Source of the DNA: a virus
IMG/VR virus record: IMGVR_UViG_3300047321_000459
Coordinates: 1 to 22,639 of that record
Strand: one strand, 5' to 3'
Length of the DNA: 22,639 nt
How positions within the stretch are numbered: the stretch's first letter is position 1; every line of letters starts with the position of its first letter. Below the pieces are notes generated by a model. It had not been told where the DNA came from. It ran no database searches and saw nothing but the letters and a program-made list of their open reading frames with translations. Shown here in pieces: positions 1,027 through 19,537 of the stretch. A program made the position numbers and the translations under genes.

Positions 1027-1042
1027 CTTGCACGAATGCAAA
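1027..1042 (+). promoter_or_regulatory. 16-bp motif copy before the deoxyribosyltransferase-like gene
   Basis: CTTGC-ACGAAT-GCAAA lies four bases after the stop of the first gene and touches the AAGGAGG of the next. It matches the consensus TTTGC-TTGAAT-GCAAA at 12 of 16 positions or better and points with transcription. Confidence 0.55.
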
Positions 1043-1053
1043 AGGAGGATTCG

Positions 1054-1515
1054 ATGCTTGTCTATCTCGCTGGGCCGATCTCGGGCCTGAACTTCGAGGG
1101 CGCCACCGACTGGCGGCAGCACGCAAAAGCGGAGCTGGGCCAGTTCGGGATCAAGGCGCTCTCGCCCCTGCGCGAGCAGGAGCACCTGAAAGAGGTTGGT
1201 GTCTTCACGGACGCAGCCAAGGAGACCGCGCGCTTCAAGTCGCCGATGTCGATGCCGAAGGGCCTGACGGTCCGGGACCGCTGGGACGCAACGCGCTGCG
1301 ACGTCCTGCTGGTGAACCTGCTGGGAGCCACGAAGGTCTCGATCGGCACGGTGATGGAAATCGCCTGGGCCGACCTCAGCGGCATCCCGATCGTCTGCGC
1401 GATCGAGGAGACCGGCAATCCGCACGAGCACGCGATGCTCAACGACCGGATCGGATTCCGTGTCCCGACGCTGTGGGACGCGATCGATGTCACCCGGCAG
1501 CTGCTTGCTGCCTGA
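1054..1515 (+). CDS. Nucleoside 2-deoxyribosyltransferase-like protein
   Basis: This 153-residue protein starts with the YLAGPISG motif of the nucleoside 2-deoxyribosyltransferase/DUF4406 superfamily. It then has D-x-W-D-x-x-x-C-D followed by LLVNL and SIGTVMEIAWAD, which match the conserved 'CD..lvNL....GT..E...A' block containing the catalytic Glu of that fold. Enzymes of the group transfer or hydrolyse the deoxyribosyl bond of nucleosides or nucleotides; the exact substrate cannot be read here. ATG 1054 is preferred over ATG 1036 because a strong AAGGAGG lies at 1042-1048, and ATG 1036 sits upstream of that site and inside a repeated motif. It lies between the phosphoesterase and a dNMP kinase, which supports a role in deoxynucleotide supply. 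Confidence 0.72.
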   Translation: MLVYLAGPISGLNFEGATDWRQHAKAELGQFGIKALSPLREQEHLKEVGVFTDAAKETARFKSPMSMPKGLTVRDRWDATRCDVLLVNLLGATKVSIGTVMEIAWADLSGIPIVCAIEETGNPHEHAMLNDRIGFRVPTLWDAIDVTRQLLAA

Positions 1516-1518
1516 ACG

Positions 1519-1534
1519 TTTGTTTGAATGCAAA
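1519..1534 (+). promoter_or_regulatory. 16-bp motif copy before the dNMP kinase gene
   Basis: TTTGT-TTGAAT-GCAAA lies just after the preceding stop and overlaps the start of AAAGGAG. It points with transcription. Confidence 0.6.
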
Positions 1535-1544
1535 GGAGATTGCA

Positions 1545-2228
1545 ATGACGGTTATCGGCCTCTCGGGTTTCGCACAGTCGGGCAAGACGACGGCGGCGCT
1601 GTACCTGGAGAAGAAGTATGGCGTGCGGCGTAAGCACATCGCCGAGCCGCTGCGGGCCATGCTCGCGGTGCTGCTGCAAGCGAACGGCATGTCGAGCGAC
1701 ATGATCACGCGCTACCTGGAGGGTGATCTCAAGGAGTCGATGATCCCGGAGCTGGGAGTGACCTCGCGCTACGCGCAGATCACCCTGGGCACCGAGTGGG
1801 GCCGCCAGCTGATCAACGAGGATCTGTGGGCTGACACCTGGGCTGCCGGCGTTGCGGACGGCGAGTCCGTGATGAACGACTCCGTGCGCTTCCCGAATGA
1901 GGCCAGCGCCATCCGCAGCCTGGGCGGCGTCGTGATCATGATCAAGCGTCCGGGCACCAAGCCGGCGAAGTTCAGCTGGGGCAAGTTCGGCGAGTTCCTC
2001 TACGACAAGCTTGGCATCATGTGGGGCGTGCATCCGAGCGAGCGAATCGACCTGATCCGGCCGGACTTCGTCATCCACAACGACGGGAGCATGGAGACGC
2101 TCTACGCCGACCTGGACAAGGCCATGGCAGAGCACTTCAAGCAGAAGCAGCTGACGAGCTTCGCCAACTCCAAGAAGGCACTCGCGGCAGCCACCGGGCT
2201 CGCCTTGGCTACGGGACTCGGCCGCTAA
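1545..2228 (+). CDS. Deoxynucleotide monophosphate kinase (dNMP kinase)
   Basis: The 227-residue product begins with a beta strand and a P-loop, GFAQSGKT (residues 8-15), and carries VMNDSVRFPNEA..IR..GG near residues 105-125, the hallmark block of phage dNMP kinases of the T4 gene 1 type. It should phosphorylate dNMPs to dNDPs in the cytoplasm for phage DNA synthesis. The start at 1545 has AAAGGAG at 1532-1538; an upstream extension to base 966 in the same frame would run through the preceding gene and is rejected. The stop TAA overlaps the next ATG by one base. The C-terminal tail rich in Ala and Leu after residue 205 is an unexplained extension. Confidence 0.85.
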   Translation: MTVIGLSGFAQSGKTTAALYLEKKYGVRRKHIAEPLRAMLAVLLQANGMSSDMITRYLEGDLKESMIPELGVTSRYAQITLGTEWGRQLINEDLWADTWAAGVADGESVMNDSVRFPNEASAIRSLGGVVIMIKRPGTKPAKFSWGKFGEFLYDKLGIMWGVHPSERIDLIRPDFVIHNDGSMETLYADLDKAMAEHFKQKQLTSFANSKKALAAATGLALATGLGR

Positions 2229-2524
2229 TGGCCGGGCTTCAATGGACAGAGGACCATAGGCCCCAGCGATATGGCTGGGCGCCAGGGTCCTACCTGAACC
2301 ACTGTCACGGCGCCGGGTGCAAGGAGCGCGAGGACAAGACATTCATCGGCGACAAGCGGGCAATCATCTGCGCCGACTGCGCCTATGCGCTGCCAGACCC
2401 TGAGCCGGAGCCGTCATTCGAGGTGCGCTTGCGGGCTCAGGTCACCGAGCTGCTTCGCCGCACGAGGAAACTGGAACTGGAGATTGAAGAATGGCAGAAG
2501 CGGAAGCGCGCCTCATCAACATGA
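2228..2524 (+). CDS. Small Cys-containing phage protein with C-terminal helix
   Basis: This 98-residue protein is not recognised. It has Cys/His pairs CHGAGC (residues 26-31) and CADC (48-51) that could form one zinc-binding site. A long, charged helix rich in Leu, Glu, Arg and Lys follows from about residue 63 and may be a coiled coil. Its ATG overlaps the TAA of the dNMP kinase by one base (TAATG), which implies translational coupling. The next gene begins inside its last 34 bases. Confidence 0.55.
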   Translation: MAGLQWTEDHRPQRYGWAPGSYLNHCHGAGCKEREDKTFIGDKRAIICADCAYALPDPEPEPSFEVRLRAQVTELLRRTRKLELEIEEWQKRKRASST

Positions 2525-2685
2525 AGCTGACCCGGGGTGACGCAGAGGTCATCACCCCGGAGCAGATATGGGCTGAGATCGGGAAGATCTTCGTTCAGCG
2601 GGCGACCGGAGAGCTAAAGCCGACCGGTCCCGTCAGAAGCAACCAGCCCCAGGTCGACGTGCGGGAGCTGGTGAAGGGCTTGTAG
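2491..2685 (+). CDS. Small hypothetical protein
   Basis: This is a 64-residue acidic/basic mixed protein with no recognised family. The start at 2491 has GGAG eight bases upstream, inside the preceding gene, and the two genes overlap by 34 bases. A second in-frame ATG at 2521 lacks a clear ribosome binding site. The central part (about residues 12-40) is predicted to be helical and the C-terminus is Pro- and Gln-containing. It is the last gene of the plus-strand block and ends only 5 bases from the convergent stop at 2691; no terminator hairpin is visible between them. Confidence 0.5.
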   Translation: MAEAEARLINMKLTRGDAEVITPEQIWAEIGKIFVQRATGELKPTGPVRSNQPQVDVRELVKGL

Positions 2686-2690
2686 GACGA

Positions 2691-2951
2691 TCAGGCGTAG
2701 ATGGAGGGTGCGGTGACCTGCGGCTTCACGGCCCGCACCCCAGTCCGCACATGCCGTCCGCCGATTGCCTCGACAAACGCACGAATCTCCTTGCCGAATA
2801 GCCGGCGCTGCCCGTGCGACAGATTGCCGAAGCGGTCGGTGATCAGCGTGTCCAGGGCGTGGAAGGGCGAGCGTCCGAGCCGGCGAGCCGCCATGATTGT
2901 GTCATGGCAGGCAGTTTCTTCGAGGAAGGCGCGAATCTGAAGAGAGGTCAT
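2691..2951 (-). CDS. Small hypothetical helical protein
   Basis: An 86-residue protein without a recognised family, rich in Arg and predicted helices, is encoded at the end of the long minus-strand block. The start at 2951 has AGGA nine bases upstream. An in-frame ATG at 2984 is directly abutted by AAAAGGAG, too close to serve it, so the start remains uncertain. About 107 bases without a gene separate it from the upstream gene, so it may have its own weak translation start or promoter, but no clear promoter was seen. Confidence 0.5.
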   Translation of the reverse strand: MTSLQIRAFLEETACHDTIMAARRLGRSPFHALDTLITDRFGNLSHGQRRLFGKEIRAFVEAIGGRHVRTGVRAVKPQVTAPSIYA

Positions 2952-3058
2952 AGGTTGGATTCCTAGTGGCGGGCCGGGTGACATACTCCTTTTCAAGAGC
3001 GAGGAAAGAGGGTCCAGCAAGTATTTCGACTAGACCCCCCACCGTTTGCTGCGCCGCG

Positions 3059-3340
3059 TCAGAAAATACGCAGGGTGGCACGCGAGATCTTGTCCGGGAG
3101 AAAGCCCTTTGGCATGTCCCGGAGCCGCTCGGTCTCGAACCGCAGGTCATCCAGCGTGATCTGCTGCCGGATGCGCTCCAAGGCCTCCTTCTTAAACTCC
3201 TCATCACCACGGGGCAGCGGGTGCGTGCGGCCGAACTCCAGCTTGCGCTTGCCCTCGGTCTTGTGGCGCACCTCGTAGCCCATGAACCCCAGGATGGTGA
3301 TCACGTCGACGAGGGGGTATCCGTAAACTGTCTCTCTCAT
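3059..3340 (-). CDS. Hypothetical protein with charged C-terminal half
   Basis: The 93-residue product has no recognised family. Its first half (VYGYPLVDVITILGFMGYEVRH) looks like a compact alpha/beta unit, and the second half is strongly charged and helical. ATG 3340 overlaps the TGA of the upstream Lar-like gene as ATGA and has GGAA nine bases upstream. This is preferred to an ATG five codons earlier, which would run further into the neighbour. It is part of the coupled 3059-5653 gene run. Confidence 0.55.
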   Translation of the reverse strand: MRETVYGYPLVDVITILGFMGYEVRHKTEGKRKLEFGRTHPLPRGDEEFKKEALERIRQQITLDDLRFETERLRDMPKGFLPDKISRATLRIF

Positions 3341-3585
3341 GCTGCCAGATTCCATCTTTCAACCGCGGTGATGTGTCGGTGGTAATAGTCCTCGGGTCCT
3401 ACCCGCTTTGACAGCGGACCATCAGCTCCGCAGGCGAGGCAGGTGACGTGCGGGTGAGGGCCCATGTAGAGCCCGACGTGCAGAGACTTGCAGAACGGAC
3501 ACCACTTCAGCTTCCTGCCGAAGCGGTGCTGGACCTCCTCGGCTCTCATGACGTTCCGGTCGTTAAACTGCGTCCAGCTGCTCAT
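3337..3585 (-). CDS. Zinc-ribbon protein resembling the restriction-alleviation (Lar) family
   Basis: This 82-residue protein has CPFC (residues 29-32) and CLAC (49-52), followed by GADGPLS and a C-terminal AVERWNLAA. The pattern 'CPFC...V.C..CGA.GP......A...WN..A' is typical of the Lar family of small phage zinc ribbons. Lar of the Rac prophage lowers type I restriction of incoming DNA, but most family members are untested, so the anti-restriction role here is inferred. ATG 3585 overlaps the preceding TGA (ATGA) with GGA upstream. The downstream gene is coupled by another ATGA. Confidence 0.65.
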   Translation of the reverse strand: MSSWTQFNDRNVMRAEEVQHRFGRKLKWCPFCKSLHVGLYMGPHPHVTCLACGADGPLSKRVGPEDYYHRHITAVERWNLAA

Positions 3586-3740
3586 GATACGTCCAAGGGT
3601 TTGAAGGTCGTGCGGCTGAACTGCCAGTGGTCGACCCTTCCGCAACAGGAGCAGGTGTTGGCCCGCACCCAGCCACGGCTGCTCTGTCTCCACGGCTCGT
3701 AGACGTTCCAGTGCCCGATGATCCAGCAGAGCCACTTCAT
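3582..3740 (-). CDS. Very small Cys-rich phage protein (DUF1660-like)
   Basis: The gene encodes 52 residues that begin KWLCWIIGHW and contain CSCCGR near residue 30. Small phage proteins with an N-terminal 'C..[LI][IF]GH.W' and a later CxxCG, such as DUF1660, share this layout, and the Cys/His residues probably bind one zinc ion. The start is well supported by AAGGAG eight bases before ATG 3740 and by a 4-base ATGA overlap with the upstream gene. No biochemical function is known to me. Confidence 0.5.
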   Translation of the reverse strand: MKWLCWIIGHWNVYEPWRQSSRGWVRANTCSCCGRVDHWQFSRTTFKPLDVS

Positions 3741-4114
3741 GCCGCGCGCTCCTTGAACCAGGCCTTGATGAAGCGATCGAGCTTCGGCGCCCGGCGCGGG
3801 AGCTGCGCCAGGCCGGTCCCGATCCCGTCCTCCGGGACCACGACGGTGTGACCGACTGCGAGAATGTGGTCGATCTTTCCCAGATCGAATCCGACATGAG
3901 CCCAGCAGTCGGGTTCGTTGTCGGCGAAGAAGGCGGTGTTGTCGTTGCTCGGCGCCCACTTGGTCACGACGCCGATCGCGTTCGGCTCTCCACGCATCTC
4001 TCGCGCCTGGCCGCCGTAGCCAATGCGCTGCATGTTGTCGCCGAAGACGTAGAAGGTGTCCCGGTTGTTGCGCAGGTCCTGCCTCCTGATGAACTTTTGG
4101 TAGCGAATTGGCAT
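3737..4114 (-). CDS. Conserved YVFGDN-family protein (probably DUF7831)
   Basis: The 125-residue protein contains YVFGDN (residues 22-27), GYGGQAREMRGEPNAIGV (32-49) and GIGTGLAQLPRRAP (97-110). These blocks belong to a widespread bacterial and phage family that I believe is DUF7831; the label is from memory. The Gly-rich loops and the GxGTGLA segment resemble nucleotide- or ADP-ribose-binding macro-type loops, but this is only a suggestion. The 4114 start has a weak GGA and lies next to the TGA of the upstream gene; its own stop overlaps the next start as ATGA. Confidence 0.6.
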   Translation of the reverse strand: MPIRYQKFIRRQDLRNNRDTFYVFGDNMQRIGYGGQAREMRGEPNAIGVVTKWAPSNDNTAFFADNEPDCWAHVGFDLGKIDHILAVGHTVVVPEDGIGTGLAQLPRRAPKLDRFIKAWFKERAA

Positions 4115-4115
4115 G

Positions 4116-4388
4116 TCAGTATCCGAAATAGATCCAGTAGTCGGTGTCGCGTTCGAGCAGATCGCAGAGGTGGAGGAAGCGATCGGGCTGCTCCAGGCTG
4201 CTTTCCCTGATGCCGGCGCGGAGCTGGTCGACGAAGGTCGGGCGGACCATGTCCTCGTCTCCTGGCTTCGTGATCGTTCGGCAGTTCCTGAGCACGGCCG
4301 GGAATTGGCTGTCGCCGGAGTGGCGAACGAAGTCCCAATCCGGGTGATCCTCGCAGGTGTTGCGATAGAGGCTGATGTGGATGCCCAT
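4116..4388 (-). CDS. Hypothetical protein
   Basis: This 90-residue protein begins MGIHISLYRN and ends with an aromatic DYWIYFGY tail. The pattern 'mGi.isly......wd..R..gD..f' recalls small phage proteins of unknown function, and I cannot assign a family. GGAGG lies four bases before ATG 4388, and the start overlaps the upstream TGA (TGATG), so translation is probably coupled to the oxygenase-like gene. Confidence 0.55.
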   Translation of the reverse strand: MGIHISLYRNTCEDHPDWDFVRHSGDSQFPAVLRNCRTITKPGDEDMVRPTFVDQLRAGIRESSLEQPDRFLHLCDLLERDTDYWIYFGY

Positions 4389-5026
4389 CACGCCTCCGAT
4401 GTCGTGTGGTTGCGCTCGACTCCGCGGGGCACGGTCGGCCATTCCGGGAAGGCGTGATTGACCGAGTTGCCTTCCAGGTCGTAGCGGGAGCGGGAGACCG
4501 AGATCTTCACAAAGCTCCGCATGCCGGACGTTAGGTTTGCGGCCACGCGATGGATGACGGACTCGTCCAGGCGCAGCAGGTGCTTGTCGCCATAGGTCCG
4601 GGTGTACTGCGGAGCATAGGCAGCCGCATACTCCATCTCGCCCAACGACCGGTGGTGATCCTGGGTGAACGGGATCAGCTTTGCCGGCTCCCAAAACTCC
4701 GTGCCGCAACGATCCGACCAGATGTAATTCAGGTCATCCGTCATGAAGCCATCGGAATGCCAGCCCGGACGGTTGCCCGGATTATCCTTCGACACCCACA
4801 GCGTCTTGGCGGTCAGATAGACGTAGCTGTCGCGCCAACGCTCGCGATCGCAGTCGAAGTAGGCCTGGAACACCAGCTCATCGAACTGACGCAGGTTGTC
4901 CGGATAGATCGGCTCCCACCGCCCCGGAAGCTTGATGGGGCAGTACATCCAGAACATCATCTCCTTCGGGGAGAGTCCGACGTATCCGAGATCGACCGGG
5001 GCGCTTCCGTAGAGCTTATTTGCCAA
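4388..5026 (-). CDS. Probable Fe(II)/2-oxoglutarate-dependent oxygenase
   Basis: The 212-residue protein has the expected facial-triad layout of the double-stranded beta-helix oxygenases. H90-S-D92 (GWHSDGF) follows a strand (YVYLTAKTLWV), then comes a CGTEFW strand at 107-112, a distal H159 in ESVIHRVA, and R170 eleven residues later in RSFVKISVS, placed to bind 2-oxoglutarate. Such enzymes hydroxylate proteins, small molecules or nucleic-acid bases; the substrate is unknown. The start is an inferred TTG at 5026 with GAGGAG seven bases upstream, because no ATG or GTG occurs in the first 20 codons. It overlaps the preceding gene by 11 bases. Confidence 0.6.
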   Translation of the reverse strand: MANKLYGSAPVDLGYVGLSPKEMMFWMYCPIKLPGRWEPIYPDNLRQFDELVFQAYFDCDRERWRDSYVYLTAKTLWVSKDNPGNRPGWHSDGFMTDDLNYIWSDRCGTEFWEPAKLIPFTQDHHRSLGEMEYAAAYAPQYTRTYGDKHLLRLDESVIHRVAANLTSGMRSFVKISVSRSRYDLEGNSVNHAFPEWPTVPRGVERNHTTSEA

Positions 5027-6440: not shown

Positions 6441-6452
6441 GATACTCTCCTG

Positions 6453-6773
6453 TTATGCGAGGTGGTCGGGCCAACCGGCCTGCGATGCCGCCTCGTTGGA
6501 TTGGCGACGTGCAGCGACGTCGCGACGATCAGCCTCTACGGCTGCGTAGGTCGGCAGACGGGTCCACTCGTCGTCGTATTCGCGAGCGAGGGTCTGCTGG
6601 ACCTGGGAGGCGAACAGGCGCGCGGCCTGCTCACCCATGTCTGCGAGGACAACGTCCCCGAAGACCATTCGGAATTTGATCTGGGGCTTTTCGCCCTCGT
6701 TCTCGATCTTGATGGCGGTGAAGCTGATGGGGCCCGCCTGCAGGACGGTGATGTTGGTGATCTCTTGGCTCAT
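6453..6773 (-). CDS. Hypothetical phage protein
   Basis: This 106-residue protein has a beta-rich first half (ITNITVLQAGPISFTAIKIEN...IKFRMVFGDVVLADM) and a helical charged second half. No family is recognised. ATG 6773 overlaps the methyltransferase stop as ATGA, with TGGAA upstream. Twelve bases separate its stop from the next gene's TTG start. Confidence 0.55.
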   Translation of the reverse strand: MSQEITNITVLQAGPISFTAIKIENEGEKPQIKFRMVFGDVVLADMGEQAARLFASQVQQTLAREYDDEWTRLPTYAAVEADRRDVAARRQSNEAASQAGWPDHLA

Positions 6774-7402
6774 GCTGCTTCCACCTCTGCTGCTGGGTTG
6801 TTGTCGTTGTCGAACTTGGTGATCTCGTTGCCCCAGGCGTCCCAGCCGGGGCGCTGCACGCGGGCGAAGATGTCGGCCTTCGGATATGGCCCGGCCATCT
6901 TTGCGGCATCCACGTAGCCCTGCTCGGGCTTGCGGGAGTGCTCTCGGCGCGTCTCAAGGATCGCGGATCGGATGTTGCGGCTGTGGATGCGCGGCTTGCC
7001 GATCTTCCCGATCAGGAAGGGCTCATGGCAATTGCGGAGCACGTAGCCGGTGCCGAACGTCGGCCGGCTCATGTCCTTCACCATCTTCACCCAGACCCCT
7101 TGGGTCACGTAGGTGACGTTCCACTGGCGGAAGCACTCGCGGGCGGCGTCGTACATCGGGGCGGTGGCGTAGAGCCACACCCACATGCCGTCGCGGTGAG
7201 CAAGGCGCTGGACATCGAGATCGAAGATGTCTTCGAGCGTCATGCAGTCGTAGTGCTGCTCAGCCGACTTGCCCTTTCCGGCGTCGGAGTAGGTCTTGAA
7301 TGTCCACGGCGGATCGATCTTCGCGAGGCCGTAGTGGTTCTCCTTCAACGGAGCGAGGTTGAAGGCAGGTGCCGGCATGATGGGGAACGGAGAGATTTGC
7401 AT
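6770..7402 (-). CDS. MT-A70 family N6-adenine methyltransferase
   Basis: This 210-residue protein has the DPPW catalytic motif at residues 30-33 (AKIDPPWTFKTYS), a middle WVWLYATAPM strand and G-Y-V-L-R-N-C-H-E-P-F-L-I-G near 119-132. The C-terminus has HSRKPEQGY and FARVQRPGWDAWGNE. These are the features of the MT-A70/M.MunI-like branch common in phages. It should methylate adenine N6 in DNA, probably to protect phage DNA or alter regulation; the recognition site is unknown. ATG 7402 has GGAGG nine bases upstream, directly after the previous TGA, and lies inside a copy of the repeated 16-bp motif. An alternative ATG eight codons later lacks a ribosome binding site. Confidence 0.85.
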   Translation of the reverse strand: MQISPFPIMPAPAFNLAPLKENHYGLAKIDPPWTFKTYSDAGKGKSAEQHYDCMTLEDIFDLDVQRLAHRDGMWVWLYATAPMYDAARECFRQWNVTYVTQGVWVKMVKDMSRPTFGTGYVLRNCHEPFLIGKIGKPRIHSRNIRSAILETRREHSRKPEQGYVDAAKMAGPYPKADIFARVQRPGWDAWGNEITKFDNDNNPAAEVEAA

Positions 7403-7411
7403 TCAAGCAAG
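7396..7411 (-). promoter_or_regulatory. 16-bp motif copy at the methyltransferase start
   Basis: On the minus strand CTTGC-TTGAAT-GCAAA overlaps the ATG at 7402 and the end of the upstream gene. It points with transcription. Confidence 0.55.
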
Positions 7412-8441: not shown

Positions 8442-8707
8442 TACGACACCACCTTCAGGCTCAGGATGCAGTATCCCGGCGACAGGACGGCGCTGGAGAA
8501 GGCGCACGGCACGGTCCGGTTGGTGATGTAGGTGACTTCCACGTTGATCTCCTCGCCCGTGTAGGCGCCGTTGATGTTGTCGTATTCCTGGAGAACCAGC
8601 ACGTCGCCGATCTGGAAGCCTTCATCTTCACGCACGTCATGGAGCTTGCGGCCGGCCTTGATCGCCTGGAAGAAGTGGGTCCAGGACTTCTTGTGGTGGA
8701 CCCTCAT
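8441..8707 (-). CDS. DUF3850 (ASCH-like) protein
   Basis: The 88-residue protein follows the DUF3850 pattern closely: H..SWTHFFQAIKAGRKLHDVREDEGFQIGDVLVLQEYD....YTGEEINVEVTYI......PGYCILSL. This family has an ASCH/PUA-like fold and is thought to bind RNA or modified nucleic acid, but its role in phages is unknown. ATG 8707 overlaps the upstream TAA by one base, with AGGAGG ten bases upstream. Confidence 0.75.
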   Translation of the reverse strand: MRVHHKKSWTHFFQAIKAGRKLHDVREDEGFQIGDVLVLQEYDNINGAYTGEEINVEVTYITNRTVPCAFSSAVLSPGYCILSLKVVS

Positions 8708-9360
8708 TACTTGGAGTCCTCCTGCGTGAAGTGGTTGAAGCCATCGCTGTCGATGAACGGCTCGCACTTGGTGACCTTGCCGGCCGCGACAGCCTCTGCG
8801 ACCAGATCGAGCATCTCCGTGCTGATCCCGCCCTGAACGCCGCGACGGCGCATCGTGGTCATGACGTTGGCCCGACGCTGGATGCGCGGGGAGAGCGTCG
8901 TGATCAGGTCGGTGCTCGCCAGCGGCTTCAGCTCGACCTTGCGCTCGACGTAGATCTTCTTGGGCTTGCCGGGCAGCGAGACGCCGCGGGCCGCCGCTGC
9001 CTGCTCGATCGACAGGCCAGCAGCGATCTCGGCCGGGGTCCGCCGGAACCGCTTTGCCGATGCCTTATTGTTGGCGGGTTTGGCGGCTTTCACAGCCTGC
9101 GCCTCTGGGGCCTTCTCCGAAATCTGGGGATTGCCGCGCGCAGCTATGGCCTCCTCGACCGACAGGCCAAGCTCGATCTCTCGGTTCGTCCTGCGGAACC
9201 GCTTCACCTTCGCCGCCATCGGCGAGGGCAAATATGTCTGTTCAGAAACAACTTGAGTTGTCAGTTGGTCAGCAATGCTGACCGAAAGCGTGGGCTGCTG
9301 CGGCGCCCGGAAAACAGGCAATACCCGCTGAAAAATCGATCTTACGGCTGCACGGAACAC
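8707..9360 (-). CDS. Predicted DNA-binding protein with two KRFRRT repeats
   Basis: This 217-residue protein contains two copies of a 24-residue basic unit, at about residues 53-76 and 103-126. Each reads KRFRRT-x2-EI-x2-GLS-x-E-x-A-x-AARG, and 17 of 24 positions are identical. The GLSxExAxxARGVS segment resembles the first part of a helix-turn-helix. The C-terminal region (ISTEMLDLVAEAVAAGKVTKCEPF) is helical and resembles the ends of small phage regulatory proteins. A nucleic-acid-binding role is inferred. The start is GTG 9360, with AAGGGGG nine bases upstream; ATG 9219 lacks a site. It is the first gene of the 9.3-to-2.7 kb run, directly downstream of a paired copy of the repeated palindrome. 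Confidence 0.6.
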   Translation of the reverse strand: MFRAAVRSIFQRVLPVFRAPQQPTLSVSIADQLTTQVVSEQTYLPSPMAAKVKRFRRTNREIELGLSVEEAIAARGNPQISEKAPEAQAVKAAKPANNKASAKRFRRTPAEIAAGLSIEQAAAARGVSLPGKPKKIYVERKVELKPLASTDLITTLSPRIQRRANVMTTMRRRGVQGGISTEMLDLVAEAVAAGKVTKCEPFIDSDGFNHFTQEDSK

Positions 9361-9379: not shown

Positions 9380-9409
9380 TTTGCATTCTGTCGTTTGCAT
9401 TAAAGCAAA
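9380..9409 (-). promoter_or_regulatory. Paired motif copy upstream of the KRFRRT-repeat gene
   Basis: On the minus strand TTTGC-TTTAAT-GCAAA (9409-9394) has perfect 5-bp arms, and a second half copy GAATGCAAA lies at 9388-9380. Both point towards the gene starting at 9360. Confidence 0.6.
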
Positions 9410-9548: not shown

Positions 9549-9566
9549 CTTGCATTTTGATGCAAA
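9549..9566 (+). promoter_or_regulatory. Wider-spaced palindrome upstream of the 9616 gene
   Basis: CTTGC-ATTTTGAT-GCAAA has near-perfect arms but an 8-base centre, two more than the other copies. TTGCAT and ATGCAA form a perfect 6-bp inverted repeat within it. Confidence 0.5.
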
Positions 9567-13606: not shown

Positions 13607-13625
13607 ATGTTCACGTTCTGTGCTT

Positions 13626-13661: not shown

Positions 13662-13701
13662 GGCGGACGTGAGATTTGTCAGTGATTTCAGAGGTTTAGA
13701 A

Positions 13702-13754
13702 TGGTGGGCGCACAAGGGATCGAACCTTGGACCTCTCCCGTGTGAAGGCACGGG
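13702..13754 (-). other. attP: attP core: 3' fragment of tRNA-Val(CAC)
   Basis: Read on the minus strand, 13746-13702 gives an anticodon loop TTCACAC with CAC at the anticodon position, an anticodon stem half GGGAG, a 5-base variable loop, a complete T arm (CAAGG/CCTTG stem), the acceptor half TGCGCCC, discriminator A and CCA. The 5' half of a tRNA is absent, so this is not a functional tRNA gene. CCCGTG (13737-13742) and CACGGG (13749-13754) form an inverted repeat around a 6-base centre in the anticodon loop, as expected for integrase core sites around the crossover. The integrase gene ends 80 bases away. Confidence 0.8.
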
Positions 13755-13808
13755 TCCATTTCATTTCACCCCTTAAAACATAGTGTATTCTGATCTTCTC
13801 GTCATTGC

Positions 13809-13826
13809 TGCACACATTTTGCACAC
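13809..13826 (+). repeat. Two TGCACAC direct repeats (putative integrase arm-type sites, right arm)
   Basis: TGCACAC occurs at 13809-13815 and 13820-13826, spaced 11 bases, in the same orientation as the three left copies. They lie about 55-60 bases from the attP core and directly before the integrase stop codon. Confidence 0.65.
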
Positions 13827-13833
13827 CTCACTT

Positions 13834-14991
13834 TCAGGCCAATTTTACCATCTTGGCCTTCTGCTTCTTCGTCAACGGCTTCAGCCGCTGGCTCTCCCAC
13901 CGCAGTGGATCGGTCATCCAGGGCGCCTCCGCCCACTCCTTGAAGGTCGGCAGGGTGTTGATCGCCCTGATCCGTTCGGCCTCTGGGACGTCGACGTAAT
14001 CGTGGCTGGTGTCGTCCACGACGTGTCCCAGGATCTGGTCCTTGATGTAGGCGTGGATGCCGTTGACCACGAGCTGGGTAGAGACCGTATGGCGGGCCGT
14101 GTAGGGCGCGATGTCGAGGATGCCGGTGCGGCTGCGGGCGTTCTTGATGCCCTTCTTCATCTGGCCGCCATTGCCCTCCACGACCGTCCAGGGCTCGCCC
14201 TCCCACGTCCTGACGAGCCTGGTGCCGTCCTTGCGCTTGAGCAGTCCGCGCATCAGCGGGACCAGGAACTCGTGCATCGGGACGCCGCGGGGCTCGCCCG
14301 TCTTGGACGACGGCAGGGTGATCCACCTCTTAGGGACGCTGACCTGCTCCCGGTCCATCAGGAACAGCTCGATCGGCCGCATCCCGGTGTAGAACAGGAT
14401 GGTCATGACGATGGCGTTGGACGGCGCCATGGCGGTCACAAACTTGACCGCCCGGTCATAGGTCGTCGGGAAGCTGCCGACGCGCTTCTTCTTGGTCTTG
14501 AAGGTCCGGGTGCCCTTCGGCTTCTTCGGCCGCCGCCACTTGCGGAAGTCGGCCCACTCGTTGCCGACCGCATGGTTCCAGACGGCCACGAACGGGGTGT
14601 AGACCTGCCGGTTCCGGGTGTCCGGCAGGACGTTAGGGAGCAGCTCCAGGGCGATCTCGTCGAGCCGGGACTGGGTAATGGTGCGCAGCTTGACGCCCAT
14701 CAGCTTGCCAGTGAGGCCACTGGTCTCGCCGGTAGCCTCGTCGTATTTGCCCAGAAACCGGGTGTCGCCGCCGGCAGCGATGTAGGAGACGACGGCCTCG
14801 TCGAAGGTCACCACAGCCTTCTTGCCGTGGACGACCTCCTGCAACAGCTCGCCCTCGCGCTTTATGCGCTTCGCTTCCGCGGTCGGCCGGTGAGTAGTTT
14901 TAGTTGACTCGAAGATCTTGCCACCTTCGGCGTCGGTGCCGCGGAGGTAGAAGTTCGACGTCGGGGTTCGTTGATAGAGGTAGAGACGCAT
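13834..14991 (-). CDS. int: Tyrosine integrase
   Basis: The 385-residue protein has the catalytic residues of phage tyrosine recombinases: R205 in TGMRPIE, K230 in SSKTGEPR, R300 in PYTARHT (a Tyr replaces the usual first His of the HxxR box), H323 in ILGH and Y332 in SHDYVDVP. The N-terminal 60 residues are an arm-binding-type region and about 65-160 a core-binding helical domain. It should recombine the attP at 13.7 kb with a host tRNA-Val(CAC) gene. ATG 14991 is chosen for GGGAAA seven bases upstream; TTG 15006 is possible but lacks a site. The 5' end overlaps the HTH gene by 130 bases. Confidence 0.92.
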   Translation of the reverse strand: MRLYLYQRTPTSNFYLRGTDAEGGKIFESTKTTHRPTAEAKRIKREGELLQEVVHGKKAVVTFDEAVVSYIAAGGDTRFLGKYDEATGETSGLTGKLMGVKLRTITQSRLDEIALELLPNVLPDTRNRQVYTPFVAVWNHAVGNEWADFRKWRRPKKPKGTRTFKTKKKRVGSFPTTYDRAVKFVTAMAPSNAIVMTILFYTGMRPIELFLMDREQVSVPKRWITLPSSKTGEPRGVPMHEFLVPLMRGLLKRKDGTRLVRTWEGEPWTVVEGNGGQMKKGIKNARSRTGILDIAPYTARHTVSTQLVVNGIHAYIKDQILGHVVDDTSHDYVDVPEAERIRAINTLPTFKEWAEAPWMTDPLRWESQRLKPLTKKQKAKMVKLA

Positions 14992-15179
14992 CGCATACTT
15001 TCCCAAATGGCCATCACGTCCGCGTCCGAGAACCTATAGACGCGGCCCTTGCGTGAAAAGAAATTGGTTCCAGCAATCAGGTCCGAGAGCGACTGTCTGC
15101 TGACCCTCAGCTTGGCGCACACCTCGTCGAAGGTGTAGACCTCGCCAAGCTTTTTGTTGTCGTTCGCGTGATCAGGCAT
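14862..15179 (-). CDS. HTH protein, probable excisionase
   Basis: The 105-residue frame contains a MerR/excisionase-type HTH: VYTFDEVCAKLRVSRQSLSDLI, then a turn and SRKGRVYRFSDADVMAIWESM (about residues 14-65), the layout of HTH_17/Xis domains that bind att DNA. Position just before int supports a role in excision or integrase control. Its last 44 codons lie over the integrase start and read as Ser/Arg-rich sequence, so the native C-terminus is probably this odd overlapping tail. ATG 15179 has a weak site and overlaps the upstream gene by 8 bases. Confidence 0.65.
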   Translation of the reverse strand: MPDHANDNKKLGEVYTFDEVCAKLRVSRQSLSDLIAGTNFFSRKGRVYRFSDADVMAIWESMRCVSTSINEPRRRTSTSAAPTPKVARSSSQLKLLTGRPRKRSA

Positions 15180-15561
15180 GGCCGGTGCCCGGGATCATCC
15201 AGATGCTGCACGACGGATCGCTGCAGCCCACGGTCGAGCCCTTCCTCCCGTAGATGACGATGTCACCATCCTGAGATCGCCAAACTGCGTCTGGCTGGGG
15301 GTAGAAGGTGGCGCACCAGACGCGGGTCTTGTGAAACCCGGTCGGCGGGCGGCCTGCGATCCAGTCGGTCGAGATGCCATTGAAGCTGACGCGACGATAG
15401 CGATAGGACAGCTCGCTGCCCGTGTCGCCGTGTGCGTCCATCTCGACCTCCCAGTCGTCGCCATACGCGCTGATGTCGATCCACTCGCGGTCTCGCTCGA
15501 TGCGACTGCGGGTGATCTCGCTGTGCCGGCAGAAGATGAAGTCGCTGTCCTCCAGGCTCAT
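15172..15561 (-). CDS. Hypothetical protein
   Basis: This 129-residue protein is beta-rich with many aromatic and charged residues (IDISAYGDDWEVEMDAHGDTGSEL, WIAGRPPTGFHKTRVWC) and a Cys pair near the end (GCSDPSC). No family is recognised. ATG 15561 overlaps the upstream TGA as ATGA, with CGGAG seven bases upstream. Confidence 0.55.
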   Translation of the reverse strand: MSLEDSDFIFCRHSEITRSRIERDREWIDISAYGDDWEVEMDAHGDTGSELSYRYRRVSFNGISTDWIAGRPPTGFHKTRVWCATFYPQPDAVWRSQDGDIVIYGRKGSTVGCSDPSCSIWMIPGTGHA

Positions 15562-15740
15562 TGCGCTTCTCCGATCAGGATACGGCTCTCGTCGCGGGTG
15601 TTGCCCAGCCAGCAGTTCGAGATGCCGGCGTAGCTCCGGATGTCCTGGTAGTGCAGATCCGCCTCCGCCTCCGAGGAGTAGGGCCCGGCCTGATAGTCTT
15701 TCCCCATGAGGGAGTAGTTGACGTAATGCTTCTGGCTCAT
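15558..15740 (-). CDS. Small hypothetical protein
   Basis: This 60-residue protein begins MSQKHYVNYSLMGKDYQAGPYSSEAEADLHYQDIRSY in overlapping segments. The 'GPYSSEAEA..........G' pattern (strand, then helix after a Ser-rich turn) is common in small phage proteins with a split beta-alpha fold. No function is known. ATG 15740 overlaps the upstream TGA as ATGA. Confidence 0.5.
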   Translation of the reverse strand: MSQKHYVNYSLMGKDYQAGPYSSEAEADLHYQDIRSYAGISNCWLGNTRDESRILIGEAQ

Positions 15741-16057
15741 TCTCGTTTCCCGAATACGCTGTCGACGGTCGGCCCATTCTCTGCGGGAGCGGTCCAGACC
15801 CTCGTCTGCTTGTTGCCGTGGTGGTGGCCCTTGACGTGGAAATCCTGCTCGTGTCGGGCGCGGTTCAGTTTCGAGGCCATGATCTTGAAGCCAGCAAGCA
15901 TCGCTTCATCGTGGTCTCGAAACGTCTGTGGCTTCCCGTCCTTGCCATTCACCCACTCCGGCGGATGGCCCGGAATGCCGAAGGTCGCGTGGTAGAGACC
16001 GTCGACTTCCTTGTGGGCGACAACCGCAGAATAGTAGGAGTTGGCAATCTTGGTCAT
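15737..16057 (-). CDS. Hypothetical His-rich protein
   Basis: This 106-residue protein has an aromatic N-terminal half (YYSAVVAHKEVDGLYHATFGIPGHPPEWVNG) and a His-rich stretch (DFHVKGHHHGNKQ) that might bind metal. No family is recognised. ATG 16057 overlaps the thyX stop as ATGA with GGGAA upstream, so it is coupled to ThyX. Confidence 0.55.
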   Translation of the reverse strand: MTKIANSYYSAVVAHKEVDGLYHATFGIPGHPPEWVNGKDGKPQTFRDHDEAMLAGFKIMASKLNRARHEQDFHVKGHHHGNKQTRVWTAPAENGPTVDSVFGKRE

Positions 16058-17031
16058 GCAGCTTCCCTGAAGACGTCTCGTTCGATGAATTTGCGGTTCT
16101 GGTTCCAGCCGCGGAGGTTCCCGTGGAGGTGCGGCTGCTGCCATCGGTCCGTGCGCCATTCGCCGTAAGGGCCGACGTGACCATTCACGCGGAAGTCGGG
16201 CGTGGCCTGATGCTCTGCCGGCGATGCATGGAGCGGGCGGGCGCCGACCAGATCGTTGAAGAGCTGAAGGTCCTTGTGAACCAAGGGCGTCTTGCCTTCG
16301 TGCGTCAGGTAAGATGTGCGAGCGCAACGGGCGACGGAGATCTTCTTCTGCGTCTCCAGCTCCAGCCACTCCTGCTCGTGCTCGGTCACAAAAGGCAAAT
16401 GCCACTGACCGGGCTGCAACAGCTGCGGCTCGCTGCCTGCAAACGCTTCCTTGATCGCGACTGCAAGCGCCTGGATCTCTGGCTGAGCATCCTTGTGGTC
16501 GCGAAGCTCGAAGAAGTTGTCCCAATCGGTCGCGGTGATCAGCACGTTGATGTGCGCGAACGGCTCAAGGAGTCGATTGACAACCTGCTTGTGATAGCCA
16601 GCCTGGTCGTAGGCGCGAGCGAATGCGATGGCGTGGTCTCGAGCCTCAAACCACATCTGTTGCGGACTGAGAAGCGAGCCGGCGCGCTGATTATCATTGG
16701 CGAATGGGTGTGGCATATAGTCCGACAGCTCGATGTCAGCCTGCATACCTTTCTGGTTCTTGCCCCAGTGGATCGGCATCGCGGTGTCGCGCAAGATATC
16801 GTCGATCAACCGCTGCACTGGGATCGCGCGAGAGCTTGAAGCATTGCGTGACAAATTGCGGTCGTACATCAGGCCGTCGTTGATCTCGACGATCATATCT
16901 GGCGTGGAACTGAGGACGCGATGAGTCAGTTCTTCCGCGTGGATGAAGCGCGGATAACGCGCAAGCGCCGTTTTCAGTTCGATTTGCTCAGTCGAAATGC
17001 TGTGCAGAATTTTCTTTGCAGAAATTGTCAT
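16054..17031 (-). CDS. thyX: FAD-dependent thymidylate synthase
   Basis: The 325-residue protein is a phage-type ThyX. It contains RYPRFIHAE..THRVL (residues 25-40), SRNASSSRAIPV (61-72), GKNQKGMQA (90-98) and HKQVVNRLLEPF followed by ITATDWDNFFELR..KDAQPEIQ, then a C-terminal part with CARTSY. It methylates dUMP to dTMP using FAD and methylene-tetrahydrofolate. Compared with the usual contiguous 'HR.FSRNASSSRAIP' signature, about 20 residues (SSTPDMIVEINDGLMYDRNL) are inserted between HRVL and SRNASSSR. ATG 17031 overlaps the upstream TGA as ATGA, with GGAGGAG ending 11 bases upstream. Confidence 0.88.
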   Translation of the reverse strand: MTISAKKILHSISTEQIELKTALARYPRFIHAEELTHRVLSSTPDMIVEINDGLMYDRNLSRNASSSRAIPVQRLIDDILRDTAMPIHWGKNQKGMQADIELSDYMPHPFANDNQRAGSLLSPQQMWFEARDHAIAFARAYDQAGYHKQVVNRLLEPFAHINVLITATDWDNFFELRDHKDAQPEIQALAVAIKEAFAGSEPQLLQPGQWHLPFVTEHEQEWLELETQKKISVARCARTSYLTHEGKTPLVHKDLQLFNDLVGARPLHASPAEHQATPDFRVNGHVGPYGEWRTDRWQQPHLHGNLRGWNQNRKFIERDVFREAA

Positions 17032-17234
17032 AGGCTTGCATTCTCCTCCAGGATGCGCTTTGCTTCTTGCTCGCTCTCGTAGGGACCGACTGCATCGAAG
17101 CAGTAGCCTTCGCCGTCAGGCCCCATATCGCCGTTCAAATCCTCCATACTGAGGATCCACCAGCCGCCGAGCCCTTCACCGGCTTCTTCGTCGGTGAGAA
17201 ATTTGATGACCGTTTTTGAATGGTGCCCGGTCAT
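17028..17234 (-). CDS. Small acidic hypothetical protein
   Basis: This 68-residue protein reads TVIKFLTDEEAGEGLGGWW at the start, then YCFDAVGPYESEQEAKRILEEN at the end. The 'GPYES.QEA...' strand-helix end is like the small protein at 15558-15740, a common phage mini-fold. ATG 17234 overlaps the stop of the small membrane protein upstream as ATGA with GGTGA before it. No function is known. Confidence 0.5.
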   Translation of the reverse strand: MTGHHSKTVIKFLTDEEAGEGLGGWWILSMEDLNGDMGPDGEGYCFDAVGPYESEQEAKRILEENASL

Positions 17235-17398
17235 GGCTTCACCGGGTCGACGATGCAGTACCAGCTGGATCTGACTAGCTCCTTGCGTGAACCTTGAGGG
17301 CACTTCGGCTCGTTGATGACCACTGAAACCCCAATGGCAACCAGCAAGACCGCGGCGACCCCGATCGCGACAAGCGCCGTGAACAATTCATCGTCCAT
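17231..17398 (-). CDS. Small single-pass membrane protein
   Basis: A 55-residue protein starts at ATG 17398 with GGAGG six bases upstream, straight after the TGA of the upstream gene. It begins MDDELFTALVAIG and has one hydrophobic helix at about residues 6-28, followed by a 27-residue soluble tail with two Cys residues and a Trp. It ends with TGA overlapping the next ATG. Good spacing on both sides supports it as a real gene. Its role is unknown; a membrane or lysis-related role is possible but not shown. Confidence 0.6.
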   Translation of the reverse strand: MDDELFTALVAIGVAAVLLVAIGVSVVINEPKCPQGSRKELVRSSWYCIVDPVKP

Positions 17399-17399
17399 G

Positions 17400-17885
17400 T
17401 CAAGCCTCCGACTTGAGCGGGATCGACTTCAGGAGCAGCTCAACCTGAGCCTGGAGCTGGCGGATTTGTTCCCGCTGTGCCCTGTTCTCAAACAGCTTCT
17501 CGTTGTTGGACGTGATCAGCTCCTTGATGCGCTCGTTCGCGAAAGCGGCATCGACGAACGAATCCTCGATCGCCTCAAGCAGGCGAGGTAGCGCCTGCAT
17601 CAATCCTGTCAGGAAACGGGCACGCTCGGCCGCGTCAGGGGTGATGCCGGTCAGCGCCAGTACTAACCCGGTCTGGGTATTGCGCACCGAATGCATCACG
17701 GTCTTTTCCGGCAGCACGATCAGTTCGCGGGTCTTGGCGAGATGGGTCTTCATCTCTTCGATCTGCTCGTCGTCGGTCAGCTCTGCTGATCCAGCCCATT
17801 CGGGGTCGGCGACGAACTTGAGAAACTTTCTCGCCTCGCGGACGAATGAAAGCAGCTCCTGATCAGTGTTCTGTTTGTCAGACAT
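17400..17885 (-). CDS. Hypothetical helical protein with C-terminal coiled coil
   Basis: This 161-residue protein is almost entirely helical. The C-terminal 50 residues (NERIKELITSNNEKLFENRAQREQIRQLQAQVELL, in overlapping parts) show heptad-like hydrophobic spacing and probably form a coiled coil. No family is recognised. ATG 17885 has GGAG eight bases upstream and follows a terminator, so it starts its own unit or depends on read-through. Confidence 0.55.
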   Translation of the reverse strand: MSDKQNTDQELLSFVREARKFLKFVADPEWAGSAELTDDEQIEEMKTHLAKTRELIVLPEKTVMHSVRNTQTGLVLALTGITPDAAERARFLTGLMQALPRLLEAIEDSFVDAAFANERIKELITSNNEKLFENRAQREQIRQLQAQVELLLKSIPLKSEA

Positions 17886-17913
17886 TGTAGGCACTCCAAA
17901 AATTTCCAAACAG

Positions 17914-17943
17914 AAAAATGACGGCCGCCCCGAAGGGCGACCG
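17914..17943 (-). terminator. Rho-independent terminator after the solute-binding protein gene
   Basis: On the minus strand an 8-bp stem with one wobble (GGTCGCCC / GGGCGGCC) and a TTCG loop at 17924-17943 is followed by GTCATTTTT. It lies 15 bases past the stop of the TAXI-like gene. Confidence 0.75.
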
Positions 17944-17958
17944 CCGTAGCCATTGCCG

Positions 17959-18834
17959 TTATTGCGGCTTGGCGAGCTTCTGGATGTCGGGCTTCGCAGC
18001 GTTGAAGCCGCGGAGGATCTTGTTGTAGTCGTCCTCGTGAGCGCCGATCCAATCGGTGTTGGCAACGAACACTGCGTCGACCTGCACCGTGCCGACAGAC
18101 TTGGTGCCATAGACCGTGCCGGACGGCTGAATGCGCGGATAGGTGTCCGCGGGGATCTCACCGTAGGTGTAGACGGGCTGCTTGCGGGCATCGACCGCGG
18201 TTTTGGTCATGTCGCGGTCGTCGGTGCCGACCAGGATCACAGCGTCGCCGGCCTTCTGCACTTCGTTCTTGATGAACGGAGCGTTGAGAGCGGTCACGAT
18301 CAGGCCGCACTGGACCAGAGAGCCATCCGCGACTGCCGAGAGCATGCGGTCACCCGAGAGCGGCGACGTGCTGACCTTGCCGTAGCGAGCCTTGTCAGCC
18401 ATGACGAAACCCTGCCACGTCGTGTTTCCGCCGGAGCCGTCCTGGCCGACAGCGACCGTCATGTCGCCCTTGAGGTTCACCATGCGACCGAGGTCGTACT
18501 TGCGGTTGCAGATCATGTGGACCTGCTCCTGGTACAGGACGCCGGCACGCTCCAGCGTCGAGATTGCCTTCGCGTTGCGCTGCGAATAGACCATCAGGGC
18601 GTCGGACTGGACGAAGCCGCCGTCGCACTCGCCGGCCACGATCTTGTCGAGGTTGTCGATCGAGCCCTTGGTGTAGACGACGTCCACGTTCTGAGCGCGC
18701 TGCTTCAGGTAGTGGCCGGCCTTGGCGTAGTTCAGCTCGGCATTGCCGGTGCAGAGACGAAACTTGTCGGCTGCGTGGGCGGTTGCGGTCATCGCGCTCA
18801 GGGCGAGCGCAGCGATCAGAAAGAGCTTCTTCAT
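17959..18834 (-). CDS. TAXI-type periplasmic solute-binding protein
   Basis: The 291-residue precursor has a clear signal peptide (MKKLFLIAALALSAMTATAHA). The mature part has the bilobed solute-binding pattern of TRAP-transporter TAXI/NMT1-like proteins: FRLCTG, VVYTKGSIDNLDKIVAGECDGGFVQSDAL (in parts, about 53-81), YQEQVHMIC, LKGDMTVAVGQDGSGGNTTW and DGSLVQCGLIVTALNAPFIKN. It should bind a small ligand in the periplasm, but no TRAP membrane subunit is in the window. It forms its own unit: AAAGGAGAACTAC before ATG 18834, the repeated motif and a hairpin upstream, and a terminator downstream. A phage-encoded copy is unusual. Confidence 0.68.
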   Translation of the reverse strand: MKKLFLIAALALSAMTATAHAADKFRLCTGNAELNYAKAGHYLKQRAQNVDVVYTKGSIDNLDKIVAGECDGGFVQSDALMVYSQRNAKAISTLERAGVLYQEQVHMICNRKYDLGRMVNLKGDMTVAVGQDGSGGNTTWQGFVMADKARYGKVSTSPLSGDRMLSAVADGSLVQCGLIVTALNAPFIKNEVQKAGDAVILVGTDDRDMTKTAVDARKQPVYTYGEIPADTYPRIQPSGTVYGTKSVGTVQVDAVFVANTDWIGAHEDDYNKILRGFNAAKPDIQKLAKPQ

Positions 18835-18854
18835 GTAGTTCTCCTTTGAGTGGC

Positions 18855-18870
18855 CCCCGCATTTGCGGGG
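18855..18870 (-). other. GC hairpin in the leader of the TAXI-like gene
   Basis: CCCCGC (18855-18860), ATTT, GCGGGG (18865-18870) makes a perfect 6-bp stem between the repeated motif and the ribosome binding site. No T tract follows on either strand, so it may act as a leader structure or a weak attenuator. Confidence 0.4.
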
Positions 18871-18874
18871 ACCA

Positions 18875-18890
18875 GTTGCATTCAAACAAA
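18875..18890 (-). promoter_or_regulatory. 16-bp motif copy before the TAXI-like gene
   Basis: On the minus strand TTTGT-TTGAAT-GCAAC lies about 40 bases upstream of the start codon and just after the 37-codon gene. It points with transcription. Confidence 0.55.
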
Positions 18891-18900
18891 CGCGAGGGGA

Positions 18901-19014
18901 CTAAAAAAACCAGCGGCTGATGGGGTAGCCGCGGGCAGCTTTCCAGACGGAGGTGGCGATCACGTAGATGCCCAGGCCGTCGAGGACGTGATTGGCGAGG
19001 AAGACACCGACCAT
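18901..19014 (-). CDS. Very small membrane protein
   Basis: A 37-residue protein starts at ATG 19014, nine bases after GAGG and just downstream of the previous TAA. It has a hydrophobic helix (VFLANHVLDGLGIYVIATSVW) and a basic, aromatic C-terminus (KAARGYPISRWFF). Codon use fits the neighbours, but a 37-codon frame can arise by chance, so confidence is moderate. It lies between the acidic-tailed protein and the TAXI-like gene. Confidence 0.45.
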   Translation of the reverse strand: MVGVFLANHVLDGLGIYVIATSVWKAARGYPISRWFF

Positions 19015-19017
19015 GGC

Positions 19018-19497
19018 TTATGCCTCGGGCTCAGCCTCAGGCGCCGGAGCGTCCTCGACTTCAGCTTCCGGAGCAGTCGTGGCTTCGGGTGCCGCTGTGG
19101 TCGGAACGTTAGCCTCGACCTGGTTCGGCAGGCCCGTTGCCGGGTTGTACTTCTGGTCGGGACGGCGAGCGAGACGGGTCGGGTCAACGCCTTCCATCAG
19201 GAGGCGCTTGGCTTCCTGGATCATGAAGCAGATGCCGACGACGCCGCAGGGGATGTCCGTGCCGTAGTCTCGGAAGCCGCTCCAGTCCTTGGGGTAGGTC
19301 TCCGGGATCGCATAGAAGGCATCGACGTTGCGCTCGCGGCGGCCCTTCATGGCGGTGAACATGGCAAGGCCTGCACCGAACAGTTGGCCCTTCGAGATGT
19401 CGGCCCGCTCGTTGGCGTCGCCCCACATCTGGTTCTGAAGGCCCAGCTCGGCGGCGATCAGGTCGAGGATTTGCTTCTCAGCTTCGTTAGCGTCCAA
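19018..19497 (-). CDS. Hypothetical protein with acidic Ala-Pro-rich tail
   Basis: This 159-residue protein has a folded helical first two-thirds (LDLIAAELGLQNQMWGD, FYAIPETYPKDWSGFRDYGTDI, GICFMIQEAKRLL) and a disordered Ala/Pro/Glu tail of about 30 residues. No family is recognised. The start is TTG 19497 (TTG GAC GCT) with AAAGGAGAACTACT upstream, nearly the same leader as the TAXI-like gene. Upstream lie the repeated motif and a terminator, so it begins a new unit. Confidence 0.58.
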   Translation of the reverse strand: MDANEAEKQILDLIAAELGLQNQMWGDANERADISKGQLFGAGLAMFTAMKGRRERNVDAFYAIPETYPKDWSGFRDYGTDIPCGVVGICFMIQEAKRLLMEGVDPTRLARRPDQKYNPATGLPNQVEANVPTTAAPEATTAPEAEVEDAPAPEAEPEA

Positions 19498-19521
19498 AGT
19501 AGTTCTCCTTTTGCAGTGCTA

Positions 19522-19537
19522 TTTGCATTCAAGCGCA
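19522..19537 (-). promoter_or_regulatory. 16-bp motif copy before the TTG-start gene at 19497
   Basis: On the minus strand TGCGC-TTGAAT-GCAAA lies just downstream of a terminator and about 25 bases upstream of the start codon. It points with transcription, consistent with a promoter/operator of a new unit. Confidence 0.6.

Follow-up and report, generated by a model that had tools for sequence, protein, structure and literature searches.

Why does one short palindrome recur, facing the direction of transcription, in the sparse gaps between coupled gene runs of a phage? The question is raised by the virus record IMGVR_UViG_3300047321_000459, represented here by a 22.6-kb fragment (22,639 nucleotides, hereafter the window, in whose numbering positions are given unless stated otherwise). 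An initial annotation had described six copies of a 16-bp motif, TTTGCTTGAATGCAAA, at the boundaries of gene runs. The phage family to which the window belongs infects Bradyrhizobium and related soil bacteria, and its members carry about 25-40 copies of the motif in front of their genes. The explanation that best accounts for this pattern is that the copies are probably recognition sites of the phage's own lysogeny repressor, which would silence the whole prophage through operators and stoperator-like roadblocks. We infer the repressor as the binder, its binding as a dimer and the block to elongation; what the analysis establishes directly is the number, position, direction and conservation of the sites, the uncompensated changes in their arms, and a repressor gene with a predicted fold in every near-complete genome.

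A pattern search of the window recovered the six sites exactly where they had been placed, although none of them has the precise sequence TTTGCTTGAATGCAAA, each differing from it by one to three mismatches. The search gave seven matches, including the palindrome at 9394 in both readings, where 0.03 were expected by chance, and none of 100 shuffles of the window reached that number. Scored with a matrix trained on Bradyrhizobium phage BDU-MI-1 (BDU below), the six sites reach 22.0-28.2 bits, the best unrelated sequence in the window 9.4 bits, and a window-matched null gives 0.025 sites above 17 bits. The direction of the core agrees with that of transcription in all six, and five lie in gaps, the exception being the site at 7396. 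The half copy noted at 9380 proved real as well. The "wider variant" at 9549, on the other hand, has no motif match by the matrix and is unsupported. An Rfam search of the window returned no match. The sites are as follows, with related records designated by G numbers:

1027-1042, plus strand: site CTTGCACGAATGCAAA, 25.2 bits, between open reading frame (ORF) 1-1023 and gene 1054-1515 (nucleoside 2-deoxyribosyltransferase-like, Pfam PF05014), whose AGGAGG it adjoins; orthologous site in BDU, G003, G004, G005 and G007.
1519-1534, plus strand: site TTTGTTTGAATGCAAA, 28.1 bits, starting 3 nt past a stop codon and adjoining the GGAG of the deoxynucleotide monophosphate kinase gene 1545-2228 (Pfam PF21448); orthologous site in BDU, G002, G003, G004, G005, G008 and the distant G018.
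7396-7411, minus strand: site CTTGCTTGAATGCAAA, 28.2 bits, where the MT-A70 adenine methyltransferase gene (6770-7402, minus strand; Pfam PF05063) begins, its ATG falling within the motif; orthologous site at BDU 43143 and in G003 and G005.
9380-9390, minus strand: half site CAGAATGCAAA, downstream of the 9394 site, with two mismatches to TTGAATGCAAA; comparable half copy at BDU 42217 and beside the corresponding G003 and G004 sites.
9394-9409, minus strand: near-palindromic site TTTGCTTTAATGCAAA, 25.7 bits on the minus strand and 20.1 bits on the plus strand, upstream of gene 8707-9360 (minus strand); similar site at BDU 42199, G003 20290, G004 4400 and G005 117117.
18875-18890, minus strand: site TTTGTTTGAATGCAAC, 24.4 bits, about 40 nt upstream of the NMT1-like gene 17959-18834 (minus strand); orthologous site at BDU 33791 and in G002, G003, G004 and G005.
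19522-19537, minus strand: site TGCGCTTGAATGCAAA, 22.0 bits, about 24 nt upstream of gene 19018-19497 (minus strand); orthologous site at BDU 33224, where the TGCGC arm is retained, and in G003, G004 and G005.

Because the window is only a fragment, dispersal had to be tested in relatives. BDU-MI-1 (121 kb) is the sole near relative among 50,697 phage records, with about 79% identity across 30% of the window. Only 13% of its genome is noncoding, yet nearly all of the 36 sites that score above 15 bits are intergenic. A pattern scan of IMG/VR matched at least 120 stretches, many of them from records of 100-128 kb with 23-34 copies each, and the reversed control pattern gave none. Six IMG/VR records of 100-128 kb were read nearly whole and make, with BDU-MI-1, seven near-complete relatives; these contain 23-41 sites per genome, and two distant relatives contain 29-33. 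The record G004 (IMGVR_UViG_2693430034_000001) shows its sites at 4400 and 5871, flanks included, again at 121711 and 123182, an offset of 117,311 bp; the record therefore extends beyond one genome length, and at least two sites are counted twice in the totals. In the genome of Bradyrhizobium hipponense (8.8 Mb), strong matches are confined to a single prophage contig, and the few matches elsewhere are not far above the count of the reversed control. The motif belongs to the phage.

The placement of the sites was examined in a census of BDU-MI-1, the six other near-complete records and the window, which gave 210 sites at a cut-off of at least 20 bits. Genes of the IMG/VR records were called by our own script, the first version of which recovered 196 of the 207 annotated BDU stops. 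Far from being randomly placed, 189 of the 210 sites are intergenic, and those in codirectional gaps (n = 180) point with transcription in 169 cases and against it in 11; divergent gaps hold 29 of the 210. All 33 sites of the distant G017 are on one strand. The distance from the motif end to the start codon peaks at 10 nt, so that the motif adjoins the Shine-Dalgarno sequence, and many sites start 3 nt past the stop codon of the preceding gene. The motif is also retained where its flanking genes are: a site is kept at the ortholog in 107 of 122 pairs for BDU genes with a site, compared with 21 of 513 for genes without one (Fisher P = 4e-82, the ortholog pairs not being independent). Neither of the outcomes that the initial annotation had named as refuting its observation was seen. 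Replication, nucleotide-metabolism and capsid genes are all headed by sites, and such placement ahead of early and late functions alike is expected of silencing and not of one temporal class. Their density varies, with one site every few kb in the early and replication arms of BDU-MI-1 and two intervals of 21-23 kb without any site among its structural genes (52-98 kb). Among the few conserved sites that oppose transcription is an inverted one at BDU 100713-100728 (minus strand), G003 85477 and G004 63597, with a TTAGC/CTAGC arm; it lies 9 nt before the start of the first gene of an early operon.

Alignment of the sites shows a 20-bp palindrome, CR-TTTGC-N6-GCAAA-YG, with a symmetric information profile. 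Hardly any variation occurs at T2/A15 and G4/C13, and two further pairs, R(-1)/Y(+1) and C(-2)/G(+2), lengthen the palindrome to 20 bp. The six central bases, in contrast, are asymmetric (TTGAAT, ACGAAT or ATGAAT), and because their GAAT is nearly fixed each site has a direction. Of the 103 non-redundant sites, 45 have a TG that precedes the palindrome by 10 and 9 bp, against about seven expected; this dinucleotide is weaker in the distant group. We considered this TG as a third half-site and rejected the idea, since it lacks the invariant T of a half-site. Downstream of the sites, extra GCAAA half-sites are mildly enriched (25, compared with 11-14 in control stretches).

A candidate for the protein that reads these sites is encoded at BDU 15009-15698. 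It has 229 amino acids and a helix-turn-helix (HTH) domain of the Cro/C1 type (Pfam HTH_26, E = 4.5e-6, above the gathering score), and a CI-type repressor gene of this kind is present in all near-complete motif records, seven close and two distant; it is missing only from motif records that are fragments 60-75 kb long. A PDB sequence search with the repressor profile gave no real match, and only fold comparison succeeded: the AlphaFold2 model (mean predicted local distance difference test score, pLDDT, 75.6; predicted template modeling score, pTM, 0.50; flexible linker) has as top Foldseek matches a lambda-186 hybrid, LexA and the lambda repressor, with E of about 5e-4. The protein is thus predicted to combine an N-terminal HTH with a C-terminal S24/LexA/lambda-CI-like fold. 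The serine of self-cleavage is not conserved (MPDNSF, MPDNTF or MPDNAL, with Thr or Ala in some members).

Several features connect this protein to the motif. Near-invariance of the motif goes together with near-invariance of the repressor's recognition-helix region, and the most diverged repressors come with a shifted motif consensus. The two distant records, which have only 26-27 of 207 BDU proteins in common with BDU-MI-1, encode repressors 40-43% identical and carry a shifted consensus, CTTGCAAG[CA]ATGCAAA, at 33 and 29 dispersed sites. Repressor distance and motif distance are correlated across the set (Spearman 0.87 for 36 pairs, which are not independent). The repressor gene lies on the strand opposite to its neighbors; all 33 sites within 700 nt upstream of it are inverted, and they flank a putative promoter, TTGCAA-17-TATTTG. 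Farther away, about 0.9-1.3 kb upstream and near a ruvC-like gene, 20 of 23 loci have a site in the repressor's own orientation.

The window carries a tyrosine integrase gene (13834-15006), beside which a 50-bp stretch (13699-13748) is identical to the 3' part of the B. hipponense tRNA-Val(CAC) and is, judging by this identity, the probable attP core. A prophage is present in B. hipponense. The integrase, the attP matching tRNA-Val and this prophage together indicate that the phages are temperate.

A silencing network is the best reading of a CI-fold repressor accompanied by 25-40 oriented sites, of which few are at promoters and most occupy the sole free space between coupled genes. The repressor (BDU 15009-15698 and its orthologs) would bind about 25-40 sites and silence the whole prophage. 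A minority of the sites would be true operators overlapping sigma-70-type promoters, and the majority, lying without a recognizable promoter between a stop codon and the next Shine-Dalgarno sequence, would each hold a repressor dimer acting as an oriented roadblock to RNA polymerase, in the manner of stoperators. The inverted, variant sites directly upstream of the repressor gene would be compatible with autoregulation in which that gene is not shut off.

Some observations weigh against this proposal. The BDU structural operons of 21-23 kb have no internal sites, from which it follows that an elongation block is not needed everywhere. The repressor gene lies outside the window record. The drift of motif with repressor is confounded by phylogeny, which alone could yield it. 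The proposal does not account for the extra TG that precedes the palindrome by about 10 bp. Finally, a small ORF convergent to the repressor gene, BDU 14410-14601, is possibly a Cro and could bind the same sites.

The alternative that survives best, though we consider it unlikely, is a promoter or activator role of the motif specific to the phage, in which it would start transcription of each gene run; a phage-specific promoter had also been suggested in the initial annotation. It would explain why sites head gene runs in the orientation of transcription, why some follow immediately after hairpins (as at BDU 75149, before the capsid gene) and why a TG is conserved about 10 bp upstream. However, at the commonest spacing of 10 nt to the start codon the Shine-Dalgarno sequence is directly attached, which leaves no space for a leader. 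No conserved -10 element follows the motif, and sense-strand sigma-70 scores at the 103 non-redundant sites are the same as those of shuffled flanks, with seven above the 95th percentile of the null where 5.2 are expected; these scores weaken the promoter alternative. A sigma-70 or T4-middle-type (MotA box) promoter was rejected because a -10 is absent at any fixed offset. No sigma factor exceeded the cut-off in nine genomes, in a search in which the positive control matched; a search for a phage single-subunit RNA polymerase gave no match, but neither did its control. Early and late genes are both preceded by sites, and those upstream of the repressor are inverted.

A few sites do overlap conserved promoters. 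Upstream of the ruvC-like gene, a TTGACC-17-TATTTG promoter has its -10 entering the left arm of the motif in BDU, G003, G004 and G005, with a TATTAG variant in G002 and G008. Ahead of the gene BDU 76627-76914, a TTGACA is followed by a TATACA-like -10 immediately before the site, and ahead of BDU 27115 and its orthologs TTGACT-17-TA-type pairs have the site inside the spacer. The smaller part of the sites can therefore be operators of the classical kind, whereas the greater part cannot be ordinary promoters. GC-rich hairpins terminate right at sites in G004 (89107), G018 (14003), G017 (36134) and BDU-MI-1 (75149), where, on readthrough transcripts, the left arm could provide a terminator with its U-rich tail.

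Slightly less probable than the promoter element is that the sites are the same DNA operators but have another phage protein as their main binder, either a small Cro-like protein or an unrecognized regulator. The small ORF at BDU 14410-14601 adjoins the repressor gene and has been retained as far away as the distant G017 and G018, and in lambda, CI and Cro have operators in common. Nevertheless, this ORF matches no HTH family, whereas the repressor combines a clear HTH and CI/LexA fold with a recognition helix that is nearly invariant alongside the motif.

Recognition of the sites by FixK2, a CRP/FNR regulator of the host, is quite improbable; it would couple phage genes to low-oxygen or symbiotic life. 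The FixK2 box of Bradyrhizobium diazoefficiens is TTGA/C-N6-T/GCAA (PMC6710368, PMC9104804), and the motif core TTGC-N6-GCAA fits this consensus of a species that is also the host of BDU-MI-1. Yet only the TTGC-N6-GCAA form is enriched in the phages (137 against 13.4 expected), the TTGA-N6-TCAA form being found six times against 8.7 expected. The central GAAT and the flanks are conserved too, an activator could not function from sites beside start codons, and host matches outside the prophage contig are at nearly control level. The likeness is probably a coincidence, and cross-talk between the repressor network and FixK2 is a bolder and less likely extension of our proposal.

An RNA hairpin with a UUGAAU loop beside the Shine-Dalgarno sequence, bound by a translational regulator, is less probable still. 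Orientation, adjacency to the ribosome binding site and a possible 5-6-5 hairpin would suit it, but neither the 210 sites nor the 98 unique sequences show an excess of paired arm positions, and Watson-Crick pairs are at or under expectation for all five arm pairs. Since arm changes are uncompensated, the motif is read as double-stranded DNA. The symmetric extension of the palindrome, the promoter overlaps and the inverted orientation of the sites ahead of the repressor gene argue the same way. Least credible are partition (parS-like) or genome-maintenance sites: dispersed inverted repeats do serve as centromeres in some phages, but no ParB_N protein passed the cut-off in nine genomes (the positive control matched), the phage integrates via attP, and the sites are strictly oriented and strictly before genes.

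The proposed repressor network can be compared with known systems. The initial annotation had likened the sites to the operators and stoperators of temperate mycobacteriophages such as L5, and this analogy stands as the best-supported reading. Cluster A phages (L5, Bxb1) have 20-30 dispersed, oriented sites in short gaps or gene termini, few at promoters, and a motif that varies with the repressor (PMC6550527, PMC9283540, PMC13313380); L5 sites act in one orientation only, and one at the L5 repressor locus serves autoregulation (PMC9283540, PMC6550527). Here likewise the sites are dispersed (23-41 in near-complete and 29-33 in distant genomes), oriented with transcription (169 against 11) and intergenic (189/210), few are at promoters, the repressor locus has sites too, and the motif differs with the repressor. 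The comparison with L5 needs correction, however, with regard to dyad symmetry and repressor fold. In L5 a monomer binds sites of 13-14 bp that have no dyad symmetry (PMC6550527, PMC9283540), unlike the 16-20 bp palindrome with asymmetric core described here; the L5 repressor joins its HTH to a Stoperator domain and not to the LexA/CI-like domain predicted here; and the present phages have alphaproteobacterial hosts and, in the main group, genomes of 100-128 kb. Two defining features of the L5 system, the site without dyad symmetry and the monomer with a Stoperator domain, have no counterpart in the symmetric sites and the predicted repressor fold described here, so we do not place this network in the L5 family.

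With lambda CI and LexA the candidate repressor shares the Cro/C1-type HTH, the predicted S24-like C-terminal fold, palindromic operators and a gene on the strand opposite to its neighbors. It differs from them in having 25-40 dispersed and oriented operators instead of a few, and in a cleavage position that may be S, T or A. The C1 network of P1, a temperate myovirus, comprises 22 dispersed operators with an asymmetric 17-bp consensus, ATTGCTCTAATAAATTT (PMC8546580). Its partial likeness to TTTGCTCTAATGCAAA is probably a coincidence; P1 operators, unlike the motif here, are asymmetric and have no GCAAA arm. The conserved inverted repeats of phiC31 are palindromic repressor sites with many intergenic copies, in a phage with a repressor that is, as far as we are aware, unrelated. 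In the literature available to us, no paper on stoperators with Bradyrhizobium was found. Repressor networks are known in a few other viruses, but on the proposed reading this one is distinguished by a lambda-type repressor paired with symmetric yet consistently oriented sites.

Studies of stoperators have been almost confined to actinobacterial phages, in which the reason why orientation matters is unsettled (PMC9283540). Phages of nitrogen-fixing symbionts, with another repressor fold and palindromic sites, show a layout that is likewise oriented and gap-filling, and they open this question to an independent system. That the elongation block is truly orientation-dependent is a tentative idea, more doubtful than the silencing network itself. 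It is no less speculative that a CI/LexA-fold dimer might halt RNA polymerase at palindromic but functionally polar sites, with polarity coming from the GAAT core and the upstream TG. If true, stoperator action would have evolved a second time and independently, outside the phages of actinobacteria, in the form of an elongation-blocking CI/LexA dimer. In addition, a probable immunity repressor can now be named for a phage family annotated mostly as hypothetical proteins, and motif and CI-like repressor together could serve as a simple signature by which these large prophages are found and typed and their immunity groups predicted.

One of the window genes headed by a site deserves separate mention. 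The gene 17959-18834 (minus strand) encodes an NMT1-like periplasmic substrate-binding protein (Pfam PF16868, E 5e-13) with an N-terminus resembling a signal peptide, an unusual cargo for a phage, and has its BDU-MI-1 ortholog at 33843-34724.

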